The translations under genes were made by a program, and so were the position numbers. DNA of 44,185 nucleotides. Origin: Nitrospira sp. (GTDB taxonomy: Bacteria; Nitrospirota; Nitrospiria; Nitrospirales; Nitrospiraceae). Where the stretch lies: positions 1-44,185 of the forward strand of contig JAMXAU010000006.1 of NCBI GenBank assembly GCA_024281365.1, given 5' to 3'. Positions 31,849-44,185 of the stretch are shown here, piece by piece; position 1 is the first letter of the stretch, and every line of letters begins with the position of its first letter. The notes under the pieces are model-generated. The model saw only the letters and a list, made by a program, of their open reading frames with translations, did not search any database and was not told the DNA's origin.

Positions 31849-34097
31849 ATGTCCATGGATCTCGCGAAAAATCTTTATGCCAAGATGCCGGCAGTCTTCG
31901 AGAAGGCCAGAAAGCAATTCGGCCGACCGCTGACGCTGGCTGATAAAATTCTCGTTTCACACGCCGACAACTTCGATACCCAGAATTGGGAGCGGGGGAA
32001 GGCCATGCTGGCGCTGCGTCCCGATCGCGTGGCGATGCAAGATGCCACGGCCCAGATGGCCGTGCTGCAGTTCATGCAGGCCAACAAGAAGAAGGCCGCG
32101 GTTCCCAGCACGATCCATTGCGACCATCTGATTCGTGCGGAAATGGGGTCCGAGAAGGACCTGACGCGCGCCTTGGATGAGAACAGGGAAGTCTATAACT
32201 TCCTGGCTTCTGCGGCGAAGAAGTACGGCATCGGATTCTGGAAGCCGGGTGCTGGCATCATTCACCAAGTCGTACTGGAAAATTATGCGTTCCCTGGCTG
32301 CTTGATCATCGGGACCGATTCACACACACCGAACGGCGGTGGGTTGGGTGGCTTAGCGATCGGTGTCGGCGGGGCGGATGCCGGCGAAGTGATGGCCGGT
32401 TTGCCGTGGGAAGTGCTCCATCCGAAATTGATCGGGGTGAAGCTGACGGGCAAGTTGAGCGGATGGGCGTCTGCAAAGGATGTGATTCTTTATCTCTGCG
32501 GCCTACTGACGGTGAAGGGTGGAACCAATAAGATCGTTGAATACTTTGGACCTGGCGCTGAAACAATCAGTGCCACCGGCAAAGGTACGATTTGCAACAT
32601 GGGCGCGGAACTGGGTGCGACCACATCAGTGTTCCCATTCGATCAGAAGATGGTCGACTATATGACCATTACGGATCGGGCAGATCTGGCAAAGTTGGCC
32701 CAGGCAAACAAGGCCTTGTTGACGGCTGATCCAGAGGTGATGCAAGCTCCAGAAAAGTATTACGATCAGATCGTTGAAATCGATCTTTCGAAGCTTGAAC
32801 CCCATGTGGTGGGACCTCACACGCCGGACCTTGCCAGGCCGATTTCCAAGCTGAAAGCCGAAGCGCAAGAAAAGGGGTATCCCGTTGAACTGAAGGCAGC
32901 TTTGATCGGGAGCTGTACCAATTCGTCTTACGAAGATATCAGCCGATCTGCCCATGTGGCACAGCAGGCCTTGAAGGCTGGTTTGAAGGCGAAGGCCTCG
33001 TTCCTCATTTCTCCCGGATCAGAGCGTATCTATCACACCATGAAGCGTGATGGGTTCTTGGAGACCTTCGAGAAGCTCGGCGGACAGTACTCGTCGAATT
33101 CTGCGGCCCCGGGCATCGGCCAGTGGAAGCGTGCGGATGGGGTGAAGGGCAAGGCCGACTCGATCGTCAGCTCTTTCAACCGGAACTTCCAGGACGGAAC
33201 GCATGGATCAGCGAAACCCTTTCGGTCCGGCAAGTCCGGAAAGCGGTGGTGACGGCCTACGCGATCACCGGCGATCTTGGTTTCGATCCAGTCAATCAAC
33301 CGGATGAGGTGCCGACGGCAAGGAATTCAAACTCCAGGCCCCTATCGGTGAAGAGTTACCGGCCAAGGGTTCGCGAAGGGTGAAGAGGGTTACGTGGCAC
33401 CGGCTGACAATGGCGAAGGACTCACCGTTGATCTTCCACCGACGAGCGAACGGTTGAACTTGCAGCCATTTCCGAAGTGGGACGGTAAAGTATTCCGAGA
33501 AGCTGCCGCTCAGAATCAAGACCAAGGGCAAGACCACGACCGATCATATTTCACCGGCCGGTCCCTGGCTCAAATTCCGAGGCCACCTGGACAAGATCAG
33601 TGACAACAGGATCCTCGGCGCCAACAGCGCGTTTTTGTCCGAGCCGGGCAAGGGCACGAACGTGTTGACCGGTGAGTCGAACCTGACGCATCGCGCAGAT
33701 TGCCCGCGCCTACAAGGCACAGGGCATCGGGTCAATCGTGGTCGGCGACGAAAACTACGGCGAGGGCAGCAGCCGGGAGCATGCGGCGATGTCGCCTCGC
33801 TTCTTGAACGTGCGCGCGCGGTCATCACGAAGAGCTTCGCGCGCATTCATGAGACCAATTTGAAAAAACAAGGGATCTTGGCGTTGACCTTCGCTGATCC
33901 GAAGGACTACGAGAAGATCGAGCAGCAGGACCGCATCAGTGTGACGGGGCTGAACAGTCTGGCTCCTGGCAAGCCGGTGCAGGTAACGATTCATAAAGCG
34001 GATGGCAACGCGCTCACCATTCAGGCGAACCACAGCATCACGGCGCAGCAGATCGCGTGGTTCAAAGGCGGGTTCGGCGCTCAATGCGTTGAACTAA
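31849..34097 (+). pseudogene. acnA: Aconitate hydratase, frameshifted after about 33090
   Basis: The first 415 or so codons are a clean mitochondrial-type aconitase: [29 protein letters not shown] and [20 protein letters not shown] (first cluster Cys). At 33098-33117 the expected NACGPCIGQW reads [10 protein letters not shown], but TGC GGC CCC is present one base out of frame. From about 33190 the conserved sequence moves through several frames: [89 protein letters not shown] and [20 protein letters not shown] to TAA at 34097. About 750 codons in total, the normal length. Interconverts citrate and isocitrate in the cycle. Confidence 0.85.
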
Positions 34098-36348
<2,251 letters not shown>

Positions 36349-38910: not shown

Positions 38911-40089
38911 ATGAACGTTCATGAGTTTCAAGCCAAGTCGTTGTTCGCTCAATTCGGCGTGCCGGTACCGCGTGGAAAGGAAATTACGTCTCCTGAAGCG
39001 GCCACTGCTTGGGCCAATGAGCTGAATACACCCGTATTCGTGGTAAAGGCACAAATCCATGCCGGTGGTCGTGGGAAGGCCGGTGGAGTAAAAATCACGA
39101 AGGATAAGACAGCGGTGGCAGGGTTCGCGAAAGAGCTCATCGGCAAGACGCTGGTGACGCATCAAACAGGCCCCAAAGGGCGTCAGGTCCATCGTTTGTT
39201 GATGGAAGAGGGGGCGAACATCGCCAAGGAGCTGTATCTTTCGATCCTGGTCGATCGCGATACCGGCTGGCCGACGTTCATTGCCAGCACCGAAGGTGGG
39301 ATGGAAATCGAAGAAGTAGCCGCCAAGACCCCGGAAAAGATCATCAAGGAACCGATTGATCCTGCCGTGGGATTTCAGGGGTACAATGGGCGGAACATTG
39401 CCTTCGCGCTCGGGCTTCAGAATATCGAGCCGACGGCGATGAATCCATTCATCAAAATGCTGGGCAATCTGTACCGTCTGTTCATGGAGAAGAACTGTGC
39501 CCTGGTCGAAATTAATCCTCTCATCATCACGAAGGAAAAGACCGTCGTGGCGCTGGACGGCAAAGTCTCGTTCGACGACAACGGCCTTTTCAAGCATGAA
39601 GATGTGCAGAAGATGCGCGATCTGAACGAGGAAGAGCCGCTGGAAATCGAGGCGACCGCGAACAATCTCAACTATGTGAAACTGGACGGCAACATCGGTT
39701 GCATGGTGAACGGGGCTGGTTTGGCGATGGCCACGATGGACGTCATCAAGTTAGCGGGCAGCGAACCGGCGAACTTCTTGGACGTGGGCGGAGGCGCGAC
39801 GAAAGAGACGGTTGCCGCCGGCTTCAGGATTCTGCTGAAAGATCCGAACGTGAAAGGCATCTTTATCAACATTTTTGGTGGAATCGTGCGCTGTGAACGT
39901 ATTGCCCACGGTGTCATCGAAGCGGCCAAGGAAGTGAAGATCAACGTGCCTCTCGTGGTTCGACTGCAAGGGACCAATGCCGAAGAAGGTCGTAAGCTGT
40001 TGGCAGATTCCGGATTGAAGCTCGATGTCGCAAACGATCTGTGGGAAGCCGCCCAAAAAATTGTGAAACTGACAGGAAAAGCAGCGTGA
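38911..40089 (+). CDS. sucC: Succinyl-CoA synthetase beta subunit
   Basis: 392 residues. ATP-grasp subunit: MNVHEFQAKSLFAQFGVPVP, VKAQIHAGGRGKAGGVK, LYRLFMEKNCALVEINPLII and GNIGCMVNGAGLAMATMDVI, FLDVGGGATKETVAAGFRIL, GIFINIFGGIVRCERIAHGV. With SucD it makes succinyl-CoA in the reductive direction. Paralogous to aclB upstream, a relation expected for ATP-citrate lyase evolution. Confidence 0.96.
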   Translation: MNVHEFQAKSLFAQFGVPVPRGKEITSPEAATAWANELNTPVFVVKAQIHAGGRGKAGGVKITKDKTAVAGFAKELIGKTLVTHQTGPKGRQVHRLLMEEGANIAKELYLSILVDRDTGWPTFIASTEGGMEIEEVAAKTPEKIIKEPIDPAVGFQGYNGRNIAFALGLQNIEPTAMNPFIKMLGNLYRLFMEKNCALVEINPLIITKEKTVVALDGKVSFDDNGLFKHEDVQKMRDLNEEEPLEIEATANNLNYVKLDGNIGCMVNGAGLAMATMDVIKLAGSEPANFLDVGGGATKETVAAGFRILLKDPNVKGIFINIFGGIVRCERIAHGVIEAAKEVKINVPLVVRLQGTNAEEGRKLLADSGLKLDVANDLWEAAQKIVKLTGKAA

Positions 40090-40200
40090 GAATTGCGAGG
40101 CAGCCGAGACGCCCTTGTGCTCGCGCAACGCGCACCGGAGCGGTTCTCAGTATCCTTGCAATTGGCGGTGCTCGTTGCATGCGCGCAGTTAAGGGCGTGC
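40090..40200. repeat. Long imperfect palindrome in the sucC-sucD gap
   Basis: AATTGCGAGG (just after the sucC stop) pairs with CCTTGCAATT near 40155; CGCCCTT...GCACCG at about 40110-40136 pairs with CGGTGC...AAGGGCG near 40165-40200. Arms are about 30 nt. The gap also holds AAAAGGAG for sucD. Confidence 0.55.
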
Positions 40201-40246
40201 TCGACCACCTCGCTTGTGTGAGAGAATACGGAAAAGGAGTCGTATC

Positions 40247-41119
<873 letters not shown>

Positions 41120-41939
41120 GTGTCCTAGCGGACGGTATCAAACCTCTCCGTTCAGCTGGTTCCGTGAAGCAGCCTTACACGCCCATTCGCAGTGTGGTCA
41201 TAAACCCTGCACCACCGTCAAAAGGGATCAGTACCTCCGCCAGCTGGCTCAATCTGGATGTCTCGCAGGTTCCTCAGAAAGGCCATCCAGTAAAACCGCG
41301 GGAAGAGAAGACGTGGAGTCTGTCTGAACCCGTACGCAGCCCTAGAGCGACGAGAGATCGACGCCGGCTGGTTTTTTTTAACAGCATACCGGCTGCCTCC
41401 GAAGCAATCGAAGAGCGTATGGTGAACCGGTTTCTTCTCGGAAACATGCCAATCTCAATGTGAATGGCTGATCAAAGGTTGGTTGCAGCACCAACCGAAG
41501 CCGTTGAATCCAAGGTCCTTTATCAGGCGGTCGACTCCTGTGCCTTCCCCGCTCATAAATGATGCGGAAGCCAAGCTGTTAGAGCCCCTGATGAGCTCAA
41601 GAGCGGAGTGAGGAGGGGGAGGTCGGTTCGGAAGTCATCCAGAGACAGTTGGAATCCATCTCGATGATCTCAGGATGGCCAGATTGCCCATATTGGATTT
41701 ATCGATAGCTCCAATCCGTTTTATCTATTTTCAAAAATGAACGCGGGGTTGCTACTGTTGGCGCCGTTCGCCGAATGTATACGAAAGGAGTATCCCCTCC
41801 TGATCGCTCTGAGAGGCGGATGGGTGGACTCTTATGCCAAGAACCGCAACCGCCGAACCGGGGGTCGAGTCGATTCATGCACAGGCGCACTCGTCTCACG
41901 ACACAGACCAACGACGATCGACTGATCGATCTCAGAATG
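41120..41939. other. Long gap after sucD, no supported gene
   Basis: 820 nt. Several short frames exist (for example 41164-41463 plus, and 41737-41925 plus) but none has a recognisable domain, signal peptide or good ribosome binding site. A T8 run at 41371-41378 follows GCCGGCTGG without a convincing stem. GC-rich and low-symmetry; possibly decayed coding DNA or a long leader. Confidence 0.4.
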
Positions 41940-41992
41940 TGCAACCCCAATTAGTCTCAGACCATGGGTGCGTTACCGTAGGAGGACGATGA
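41940..41992 (+). promoter_or_regulatory. Conserved 5' leader of the beta-barrel genes (copy 1)
   Basis: The strings CCCAATTAGT and ACCATGGGTGCGTTACCGTA followed by GGAGGACGATGA recur at 42902-42947 and, diverged, at 43871-43919, each time directly before a barrel gene. Contains the ribosome binding site GGAGG. The strong conservation outside the coding frame suggests a regulatory or recombination role. Confidence 0.55.
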
Positions 41993-42880
41993 ATGAAAGC
42001 GAGAATGTCGGCGATGATTTGTCTCCTCTGTGTCCTCGGCTCAGCGGATCTCACCCGGGCAGAAGATCCGTACAGCCAACGGGTCGCCGATCCCTATGCC
42101 CTCTCAGATGGCCTCCCTAATATGTCCTCCGGGACGCTTGAGCCCTATCTATCATTTTTTGCGGGCGTAGGCATTCCGTTCAGTCAGGACGCCACGTTTA
42201 CGGACGGGACCTCGCCGAGGGTGGTCCAGGATGTCGACTACGTATCGAAATTCTCGCTCGGCGGCAACCTCGGAGTCTGGTTTCCCACCAGAAATAAACT
42301 GTTTGGATTCGATCTTGGCCTGGAACTCACCGGCTTTCTCTGGTATCCGGACGTGCATTGCTGTCAGGACAATTATAATCGGGATCCCGCAACGGGGGCA
42401 GGCACCTCGACGGAGATCTCAGGTCTCTACATCGGTCCCAATTTTCTGATTCGCTACCCCATTGCGATTTCCGAAGCCTATCCCAACGGGCGGTGGTTTC
42501 CGTACGTCGGGATCGGCGTGGGCATGCATCAGATGGCGATGAGGCCGGGTGGAGTCCACGGGGTGACGACATATTTTGCCCTTGATAATACACGTACGAA
42601 CCCTATCACCGAGCAACGGAATACGTCGGTGGGGTTTCAGGGTGTGGGTGGCATCAAGGCGCATCTTTTCAAGTACGTGGCGGGATTTATCGAGGTGAAG
42701 TATCTGCGTGCCCATCACGATGGGCTGGTGACGGATCGGTTCGGGGCATCCCCAATCCAATCGTTTCCCGGACCAAATGATCCAGTAGATGGCTATTTAA
42801 TTGTGAATCCCTATTCGTCCACGATCGATACGATCTTTGTGCATGCGGGCCTGTCGATTCACTTTGACTGGAAGCCTTAG
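41993..42880 (+). CDS. Outer-membrane beta-barrel protein, paralogue 1
   Basis: 295 residues. Signal peptide MKARMSAMICLLCVLGSADL then TRAED. Mature part of alternating aromatic/hydrophobic strands: FGFDLGLELTGFLWYPDV, IGPNFLIRYPIAISEAYPNG, WFPYVGIGVGMHQMAM and AHLFKYVAGFIEVKYLRAHH, ending in Phe-x-Trp-x-Pro (HFDWKP), close to the aromatic C-terminus used for barrel insertion. A Cys pair (HCCQD) may form a loop disulfide. First of three tandem copies, about 955 bp repeat unit. Function unknown; OmpW/OprG-like or OmpA-barrel-like fold is only a guess. Confidence 0.8.
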   Translation: MKARMSAMICLLCVLGSADLTRAEDPYSQRVADPYALSDGLPNMSSGTLEPYLSFFAGVGIPFSQDATFTDGTSPRVVQDVDYVSKFSLGGNLGVWFPTRNKLFGFDLGLELTGFLWYPDVHCCQDNYNRDPATGAGTSTEISGLYIGPNFLIRYPIAISEAYPNGRWFPYVGIGVGMHQMAMRPGGVHGVTTYFALDNTRTNPITEQRNTSVGFQGVGGIKAHLFKYVAGFIEVKYLRAHHDGLVTDRFGASPIQSFPGPNDPVDGYLIVNPYSSTIDTIFVHAGLSIHFDWKP

Positions 42881-42947
42881 AAAAATCTCAGATGTGCAAT
42901 CCCAATTAGTTTCTGACCATGGGTGCGTTACCGTAGGAGGACGATGA

Positions 42948-43823
42948 ATGAAAGCGAGAATGTCGGCGATGATTTATCTCCTCTGTGTCCTCGGCTCAGC
43001 GGATCTCACCCGGGCAGAAGATCCCTACAGCCAACGGGTCGCCGATCCCTATGCCCTCTCAGATGGCCTTCCCAATATGTCTTCCGGGACGTATGAGCTC
43101 TACTTTTCCGCCATGGCGGGCGTGGCGATTCCGTTCAGTCAGGATGCCACGTTTCAGGACGGGACCCAACCGGCGGTGATCCATGATGTCGACTATCAGA
43201 TGAAGCATTCATGGGGAGGCAACGCGGGGATCTGGTTTCCCACCAGAAGTAAGCTGGTGGGCTTCGATCTTGGCGTGGAACTCACTGGTTTTGTGTGGTA
43301 TCCGGACGTCGCCTGCTGTACGGACTTTTATAATAATGACCCCACGGGGAGTTTCCAAAGGGATGGGATTGCCAATCGAGGTACCACGACCGAAATATCA
43401 GCTGCCTATGTGGGCGCCAATTTCCTGCTTCGCTACCCGATGGCCATTTCCGAGGCCTATCCCAACGGGCGATGGTTTCCCTACGTCGGGATCGGGGTGG
43501 GCGCCCATCAGCTGGGGATGAAGCCGGGCGGAGCTCGAGGGCAACGTCTGTTAACTGCCGTCACCACTCAACGGGATACGACCGTTGGGTTTCTGGGGAT
43601 CGGTGGAATTAAGGCCCATCTCTTCAAATATGTGTCGGCGTTTGTGGAAGCGAAGTATGTTCATGCCCAGCACAACGGGTTGTCGACGGATCGGTATGGA
43701 AATTCCCCCGCCGGCGATCTAGCCTTTACCGGTGAGGGTCCGTTTGTGAATCCCTATGAATCGACGATTAATACGATCATGGTGCATGCGGGCTTATCAA
43801 TGCACTTTGACTGGAAGCCGTAG
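42948..43823 (+). CDS. Outer-membrane beta-barrel protein, paralogue 2
   Basis: 291 residues. The signal peptide and the following 25 residues are nearly identical to paralogue 1 (DPYSQRVADPYALSDGLPNM). Later strands diverge: FDLGVELTGFVWYPDVACCT, ISEAYPNGRWFPYVGIGVGA and ends again in MHFDWKP. The loop with the Cys pair (ACCTDFYNNDP) and the insert NRGTTTEIS differ in length. Same conserved leader and GGAGG site upstream. Confidence 0.8.
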   Translation: MKARMSAMIYLLCVLGSADLTRAEDPYSQRVADPYALSDGLPNMSSGTYELYFSAMAGVAIPFSQDATFQDGTQPAVIHDVDYQMKHSWGGNAGIWFPTRSKLVGFDLGVELTGFVWYPDVACCTDFYNNDPTGSFQRDGIANRGTTTEISAAYVGANFLLRYPMAISEAYPNGRWFPYVGIGVGAHQLGMKPGGARGQRLLTAVTTQRDTTVGFLGIGGIKAHLFKYVSAFVEAKYVHAQHNGLSTDRYGNSPAGDLAFTGEGPFVNPYESTINTIMVHAGLSMHFDWKP

Positions 43824-43919
43824 GGTCGTGCCAGATCACGTGATCGGCTGTGGGAGCTTCAGAATGCACAATCCCAATTCGTCGAAGCACATGGTTGCTT
43901 TACCGTAGGAGGAGAATGA

Positions 43920-44185
43920 ATGAAAGCAAGAATGTCGGCGATGATGTGTCTCCTCTGTCTCCTCGGCTCTGCGGATCTCACTCGAGCGGACGATCCCTAC
44001 AGCCAACGGGTCGCCGATCCCTATGCCCTCTCGGATGGTCTCCCGACGATGACTTCCGGGACGCTTGAGCCCTATCTGTCCGTGATGGCGGGTATCGCTC
44101 TGCCGTTCAGTCAGGACGCCACGTTTACGGGCGAGGGCCCAGGGTCTGGACTCCCGACGGTGGTCAAGGATATCGACTATCAGAC
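43920..44185 (+). CDS. Outer-membrane beta-barrel protein, paralogue 3 (cut by window edge)
   Basis: 88 codons visible. MKARMSAMMCLLCLLGSADL then TRADDPYSQRVADPYALSDG, very close to paralogues 1 and 2; after about residue 60 it diverges (FTGEGPGSGLPTVVKDIDYQ). Preceded by a diverged copy of the common leader and GGAGGAG. The rest lies beyond 44185, so the array may continue. Confidence 0.78.
   Translation, partial: MKARMSAMMCLLCLLGSADLTRADDPYSQRVADPYALSDGLPTMTSGTLEPYLSVMAGIALPFSQDATFTGEGPGSGLPTVVKDIDYQ

Follow-up and report, generated by a model that had tools for sequence, protein, structure and literature searches.

A tandem array of three genes for predicted outer-membrane beta-barrel proteins in Nitrospira has in all likelihood been shaped by segmental concerted evolution, in which recurrent gene conversion at the 5' end acts on an ancient A-B-C triplet whose barrels keep their class. 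The array lies at the right-hand end of the window, the whole stretch of 44,185 nt that was analysed, and the evidence comes from the two complete copies it contains, from two close relatives that polarise one exchange, and from the wider genus.

Locus, gene classes and predicted fold

The window is contig G000:C120 of a Nitrospira metagenome-assembled genome (76.5% complete) and ends where the contig ends. The genome encodes an AmoA-type ammonia monooxygenase and the host is therefore probably a comammox Nitrospira; a second AMO (PF02461) match in this genome (G000:C133:2175-2870) contains one in-frame TGA. All features of the array are on the forward strand, behind the conserved neighbours sucC (38911-40089) and sucD (40214-41119; together 38911-41119, NCBIfam matches). 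Copy 1 (class A; 41993-42880) encodes a barrel protein of 295 aa, copy 2 (class B; 42948-43823), the structure of which was predicted, one of 291 aa, and copy 3 (class C; 43920-44185) runs for 88 codons to the contig end, while its orthologues in G005 and G037 are complete at 288 aa. The spacers measure 67 nt (copies 1-2) and 96 nt (copies 2-3). Three copies are present where the earlier note had placed them, though only two are complete. Its suggestion that the array may go on past the window does not agree with the close relatives, which have exactly three copies and then the syntenic flank, so that copy 3 is very probably the last of the array; a search of the window's own assembly returned no further copy beyond the three. 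Elsewhere in the window, a monomeric isocitrate dehydrogenase (34122-35843 and 35767-36348) and an aconitase (31849-33252 and 33635-34165) are each split in two ORFs as if frameshifted, either through assembly errors or as real lesions.

The locus was compared across 78 other Nitrospira species, with one genome per species, most of which are metagenome assemblies with arrays frequently broken at contig ends. A match to the barrel family occurs in 62 of the 79 species; the family at the suc locus was found only in the genus Nitrospira, other matches in the taxonomic family being weak. In a tree of the barrel part, copies 1, 2 and 3 fall into paralogue classes A, B and C, respectively, which co-occur in many species, while species with a single gene mostly form a separate group. 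Copy number differs among species, and the order is A-B-C in every contig carrying two or more classes, with no re-ordered array found. In relatives with contigs that extend to the flanks, the genes are preceded by sucC-sucD and followed by a PilZ-like gene and an opposite-strand secretin gene. Because the classes co-occur across species in constant order, the barrels are old and positionally stable, and the classes ancient. A link of the array to ammonia oxidation gained no clear support: some array-bearing genomes have an AMO match and others lack one, many genomes being incomplete. A search for Nitrospira outer-membrane tandem arrays in the literature collection consulted returned nothing relevant.

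The copies are predicted to encode signal-peptided, eight-stranded meander outer-membrane beta-barrels of the OmpA/OmpW fold, a likeness that in itself assigns no function. The model of copy 2 (AlphaFold2 with 38 relatives in the alignment; pLDDT 77, pTM 0.73) is an eight-stranded barrel with strands spanning residues 49 to 289, while residues 1-43, the signal peptide and linker, have low model confidence. The best-aligned solved structures are all eight-stranded outer-membrane barrels (VIA-align; a Legionella porin, Z 18.5; OmpA, 18.0; NspA, 17.8; OmpW, 17.3), and alignments to OmpA/OmpW/NspA-type barrels extend over 154-196 residues with Z of 15-18.5. With the predicted fold in common, the Nitrospira proteins differ from these barrels in having longer loops and an invariant CC pair in outer loop 2, and in having no OmpA periplasmic domain. 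Membership of the OmpA or OmpW profiles was not found, with no Pfam match at E<=1 and no NCBIfam match near the cut-off, and there was no PDB sequence match for the barrel proteins. The Cys-Cys pair (WYPDVACC; residues 123-124 of the 42948-43823 product), located in predicted outer loop 2 and invariant in 38 of 38 aligned members, is possibly a vicinal disulfide or a metal site.

The 5' module

Between copies 1 and 2, codons 1-40 contain one synonymous and one nonsynonymous difference, beyond which divergence rises sharply, and the leader (-56 to -1) contains three. Silent divergence (pS) is 0.117 in codons 1-47 versus 0.493 in the rest (Fisher P=4e-5). The best low-divergence tract runs from -33 to +121 with two differences in 155 nt (permutation P<0.001), and comparison with relatives places the tract at -56 to +143. 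The near-identity described in the earlier note, silent sites included, holds for the leader, but the coding part comes to about 121-143 nt instead of about 170 nt; the diverged bodies behind these 5' ends are confirmed by the silent divergence of copies 1 and 2. The likeness is one of copies 1 and 2, with copy 3 clearly less similar. The homogenised module of copy 1 (leader, signal peptide and linker; 41937-42136), delimited by counts of class-diagnostic sites and by the low-divergence tract, is the putative acceptor and the matching module of copy 2 (42892-43091) the putative donor, while the module of copy 3 (43864-44063) is related (80% identical to copy 1 along 300 nt). The diverged barrel parts follow at 42137-42877 in copy 1 (codons 49-295), where class-diagnostic sites resume at +144, and at 43092-43820 in copy 2 (codons 49-291), as delimited by model strands and class-diagnostic sites.

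One exchange could be polarised by comparing the window with G037 and G005, a comparison that is free of the non-independence of pairs described below for the genus-wide statistics. Copies 1 and 2 of G005 differ along their whole length (5' pS 0.383). Copy 1 of both the window and G037 is like G005 copy 1 outside -56 to +143 and like G005 copy 2 inside it. Among the sites that split the two G005 copies, class identity is kept in all three genomes at 0 of 28 inside the tract versus 170 of 249 outside (Fisher P=2e-13), and the 201-nt gap in class-diagnostic sites is the only gap >30 nt. The tract has sharp ends and an identifiable donor, copy 2. A 221-nt tree test with the nine sequences of the three closest genomes gave an AU P of 0.072, and since this misses the 5% level, the case from the trio rests on the site pattern. 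The simplest reading of these alignments is that the copy 2 module overwrote that of copy 1 before G037 and the window species diverged; alternatively, an older conversion may have taken place in all three genomes, followed by replacement in G005, the copy 1 of which has many private changes. Beyond a first transfer from copy 2 to copy 1, further exchange is pointed to because copies 1 and 2 of G037 have in common a two-base change (TT at +49/50) that is not in the window copies (both CA). The tract ends at codon 48 and strand 1 of the model begins at residue 49, placing the tract boundary at the predicted start of the barrel.

Homogenisation of the 5' module recurs across the genus. In a tree built from the first 47 codons, copies cluster by genome or species group, copy 3 included, and forcing A, B and C clades costs the 5' data 315 log units (AU P=1e-71) and the body data nothing. 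In sliding windows over the leader and the first ~100 nt, 31-38% of sequences have their nearest neighbour in their own genome (chance 4%); in body windows ~5% do, and 70-90% are nearest to a member of their own class. For pairs matched for body divergence, 5' silent divergence is 0.298 within genomes versus 0.416 between genomes (P<1e-4), where the genus-wide P values treat pairs as independent, though they are not, and are indicative only. This within-genome silent deficit extends over the first 47 codons only; barrel blocks equally conserved in protein do not show it. Paralogues are closer than orthologues in the segment, including at silent sites, and the rest follows orthology with a tree conflict that is genus-wide (in the trio alone, P=0.07), the pattern expected of segmental concerted evolution.

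The 5' tracts of other genomes have other ends (G075, -12 to 143; G077, -56 to 107; G031, -70 to 61; G021, -58 to 28), and the events are therefore independent. The restriction to the 5' end is strong and not absolute, since the pair in G032 has no 5' tract and tracts are found within the body in G008 (439-499) and G064 (465-567). In G077 (L036:606-2586), two class B copies are identical over -140 to +554 and diverged beyond it; this is the sole long tract seen and represents either a recent duplication or a long conversion. With these exceptions, the earlier proposal that gene conversion acts at the 5' end alone has strong support from the tree conflict, the nearest-neighbour windows, the tracts and the loss of class identity at the 28 sites.

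Purifying selection acting alone on the leader, signal peptide, codon choice and mRNA structure of the start region, with no recombination, is a very unlikely explanation of the same pattern. It would account for the low pN in the 5' part and for the conservation of the leader and the upstream element throughout the genus, single-copy genomes included. The likeness is, however, a property of the genome and not of the gene, as matched between-genome pairs are more diverged, and class identity is lost at all 28 informative sites of the tract. Silent-site constraint is not the cause of the 5' likeness because orthologues diverge at silent sites about equally in the 5' part (0.22) and the body (about 0.24). 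The earlier note had named selection on the leader as the alternative to conversion; such selection is partly borne out by the genus-wide retention of the leader and the 305-nt element, including in single-copy genomes, but fails for the within-genome silent identity.

The array is best explained as an ancient tandem triplet of eight-stranded barrel genes, of classes A, B and C, in Nitrospira, in which short recombination tracts (about 80-200 nt) between neighbouring copies repeatedly homogenise a 5' module made up of a leader with a ribosome-binding site, a signal peptide and a disordered linker. The enzyme pathway would most simply be RecA-type gene conversion. The transfer of the copy 2 module to copy 1 before G037 and the window species separated is one instance. 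The barrels are hardly exchanged and keep their class identity; the boundary would be set in part because contiguous homology is lost in the barrel and in part because chimeric barrels are selected against. The three barrels may serve different functions in the outer membrane while sharing control of their expression.

Barrel conservation and the upstream element

The earlier note had suggested that the array could allow surface variation, and it is highly unlikely that recombination here supplies surface variants, by barrel mixing or changes in copy number, against phage or grazers. Variability peaks in loops L3 and L4 (pN/pS about 0.9 and at most 0.95 among deeper orthologues), copy number differs among species, and deletion remnants exist, all of which such a role would lead one to expect. 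Against it, conversion avoids the barrel, the barrels are class-true in constant A-B-C order, and the closest orthologues have pN/pS values of <=0.35 for the outer loops and close to 0.1 for most strands, indicating purifying selection on barrels and loops at short distance. Diversifying selection on exposed loops (pN/pS >1) was found neither in the trio nor in deeper pairs, and no exchange or switching of exposed parts of the Hop or Opa type was found across species. The earlier note had also held that a fixed set of three copies common to all strains would speak against its reading, and across triplet-bearing species this is largely what the barrels show. No mixed barrel was found across species except for deleted remnants: G016 and G018 have truncated second copies, and the remnants, that of G013 included, are partly near assembly gaps. 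In the remnant in G013 (L044:3879-4178, reverse strand), the first 17 signal-sequence residues are fused in frame to the last third of the barrel, through either a recombination deletion or misassembly.

That the copies arose by a recent, lineage-specific tandem duplication, with the barrels then diverging very fast, is extremely unlikely. Copies 2 and 3 of G077 look that way, but the window barrels predate the species, belonging to orthologous classes in the body tree, which refutes this origin for the window, and rapid protein evolution would leave silent divergence unraised, contrary to the 0.49 of the barrels. An assembly artefact, with a repeat collapsed or misjoined in a metagenome assembly, is likewise extremely unlikely. 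The window contig and those of several relatives do break inside the array, but the two 5' modules are not identical, the independently assembled G037 has a like structure with its own common variants, and 5' tracts also occur in G075 (on a 332-kb contig) and G064 (an assembly of 2 contigs).

Ahead of copy 1 lies a conserved, genus-specific element of ~305 nt (41690-41992, forward strand; 79% mean column identity in an alignment of 37 sequences), with a nearly invariant 40-bp core, ATTGGATTTATCGATAGCTCCAATCCGTTTTATCTATTTT, at 41692-41731, ~300 nt before the ATG of copy 1. The core contains ATTGGA...TCCAAT arms and looks like the site of a regulator. The element is also found ahead of single-copy genes, its distance to the ATG is constant in nearly all genomes, and the full core occurs only at the barrel locus in the 8 genomes searched; as a signal of a wider regulon, a shorter core yielded only scattered 2-mismatch matches elsewhere. 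Where the spacers of an array are wide, additional copies are preceded by elements of their own. The element stands only before copy 1 in the window, where copies 2 and 3 carry just the ~56-nt leader, an arrangement that may point to a single operon. Two other candidates within the element were rejected: a structured RNA (just 9 of 43 RNAalifold pairs with any double change, a fold z-score of -0.84 and nothing in Rfam) and a small ORF (41737-41925) in which the ATG and frame are lost in the alignment. Predicted sigma-70 promoters in 41100-44185 showed no excess over shuffled sequence. It is conceivable, if on balance doubtful, that the homogenised leader, export signal and linker form a functional module keeping the three barrels co-expressed and co-exported, that the boundary at strand 1 is held by selection and not by homology alone, and that the 305-nt element is a control region with a putative regulator at the 40-bp core.

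Relation to known systems and significance

Segment-limited homogenisation has been described for outer-membrane paralogues of Helicobacter pylori. In babA/babB and homA/homB, the 3' segment is homogenised and the 5' and middle parts follow the gene, a pattern attributed to intragenomic recombination (PMC3960876) and described as segmental concerted evolution of bab and hom by Pride and Blaser 2002, as cited in PMC3960876. Both systems consist of outer-membrane paralogues in which one segment is homogenised within the genome and the rest remains distinct, but in Nitrospira it is the opposite end, a 5' module including the leader. Further, the bab loci are dispersed and switch places with varying expression, whereas the Nitrospira genes are tandem in a fixed A-B-C order with no sign of switching. 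Gene conversion among sabA, sabB and hopQ of H. pylori alters the amount and identity of adhesins (PMC3960876); near-identical 5' ends and conversion are common to both systems, while sab and hopQ also have near-identical 3' ends and no adhesin-type effect is indicated in Nitrospira. In a survey of prokaryotic concerted evolution, outer-membrane genes are typical short-term cases (PMC6053082). The long-lasting cases of that survey have in common with the Nitrospira array the recurrent conversion of paralogues in many lineages, but concern whole genes, mostly of complexes, where in Nitrospira only a segment is involved. The Nitrospira triplet is a case of a known process, with its polarity reversed, in tandem and in fixed order.

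The array provides a well-resolved, polarised example of segment-limited conversion in a free-living nitrifier, outside the usual pathogen families, with its boundary at the join of export module and barrel. Near-identical 5' ends in front of diverged bodies need not mean surface variation, because the bodies here are old, stable and under purifying selection. These genes form an outer-membrane family restricted to the genus, and their strongly conserved control region makes them a target for expression studies in comammox Nitrospira.
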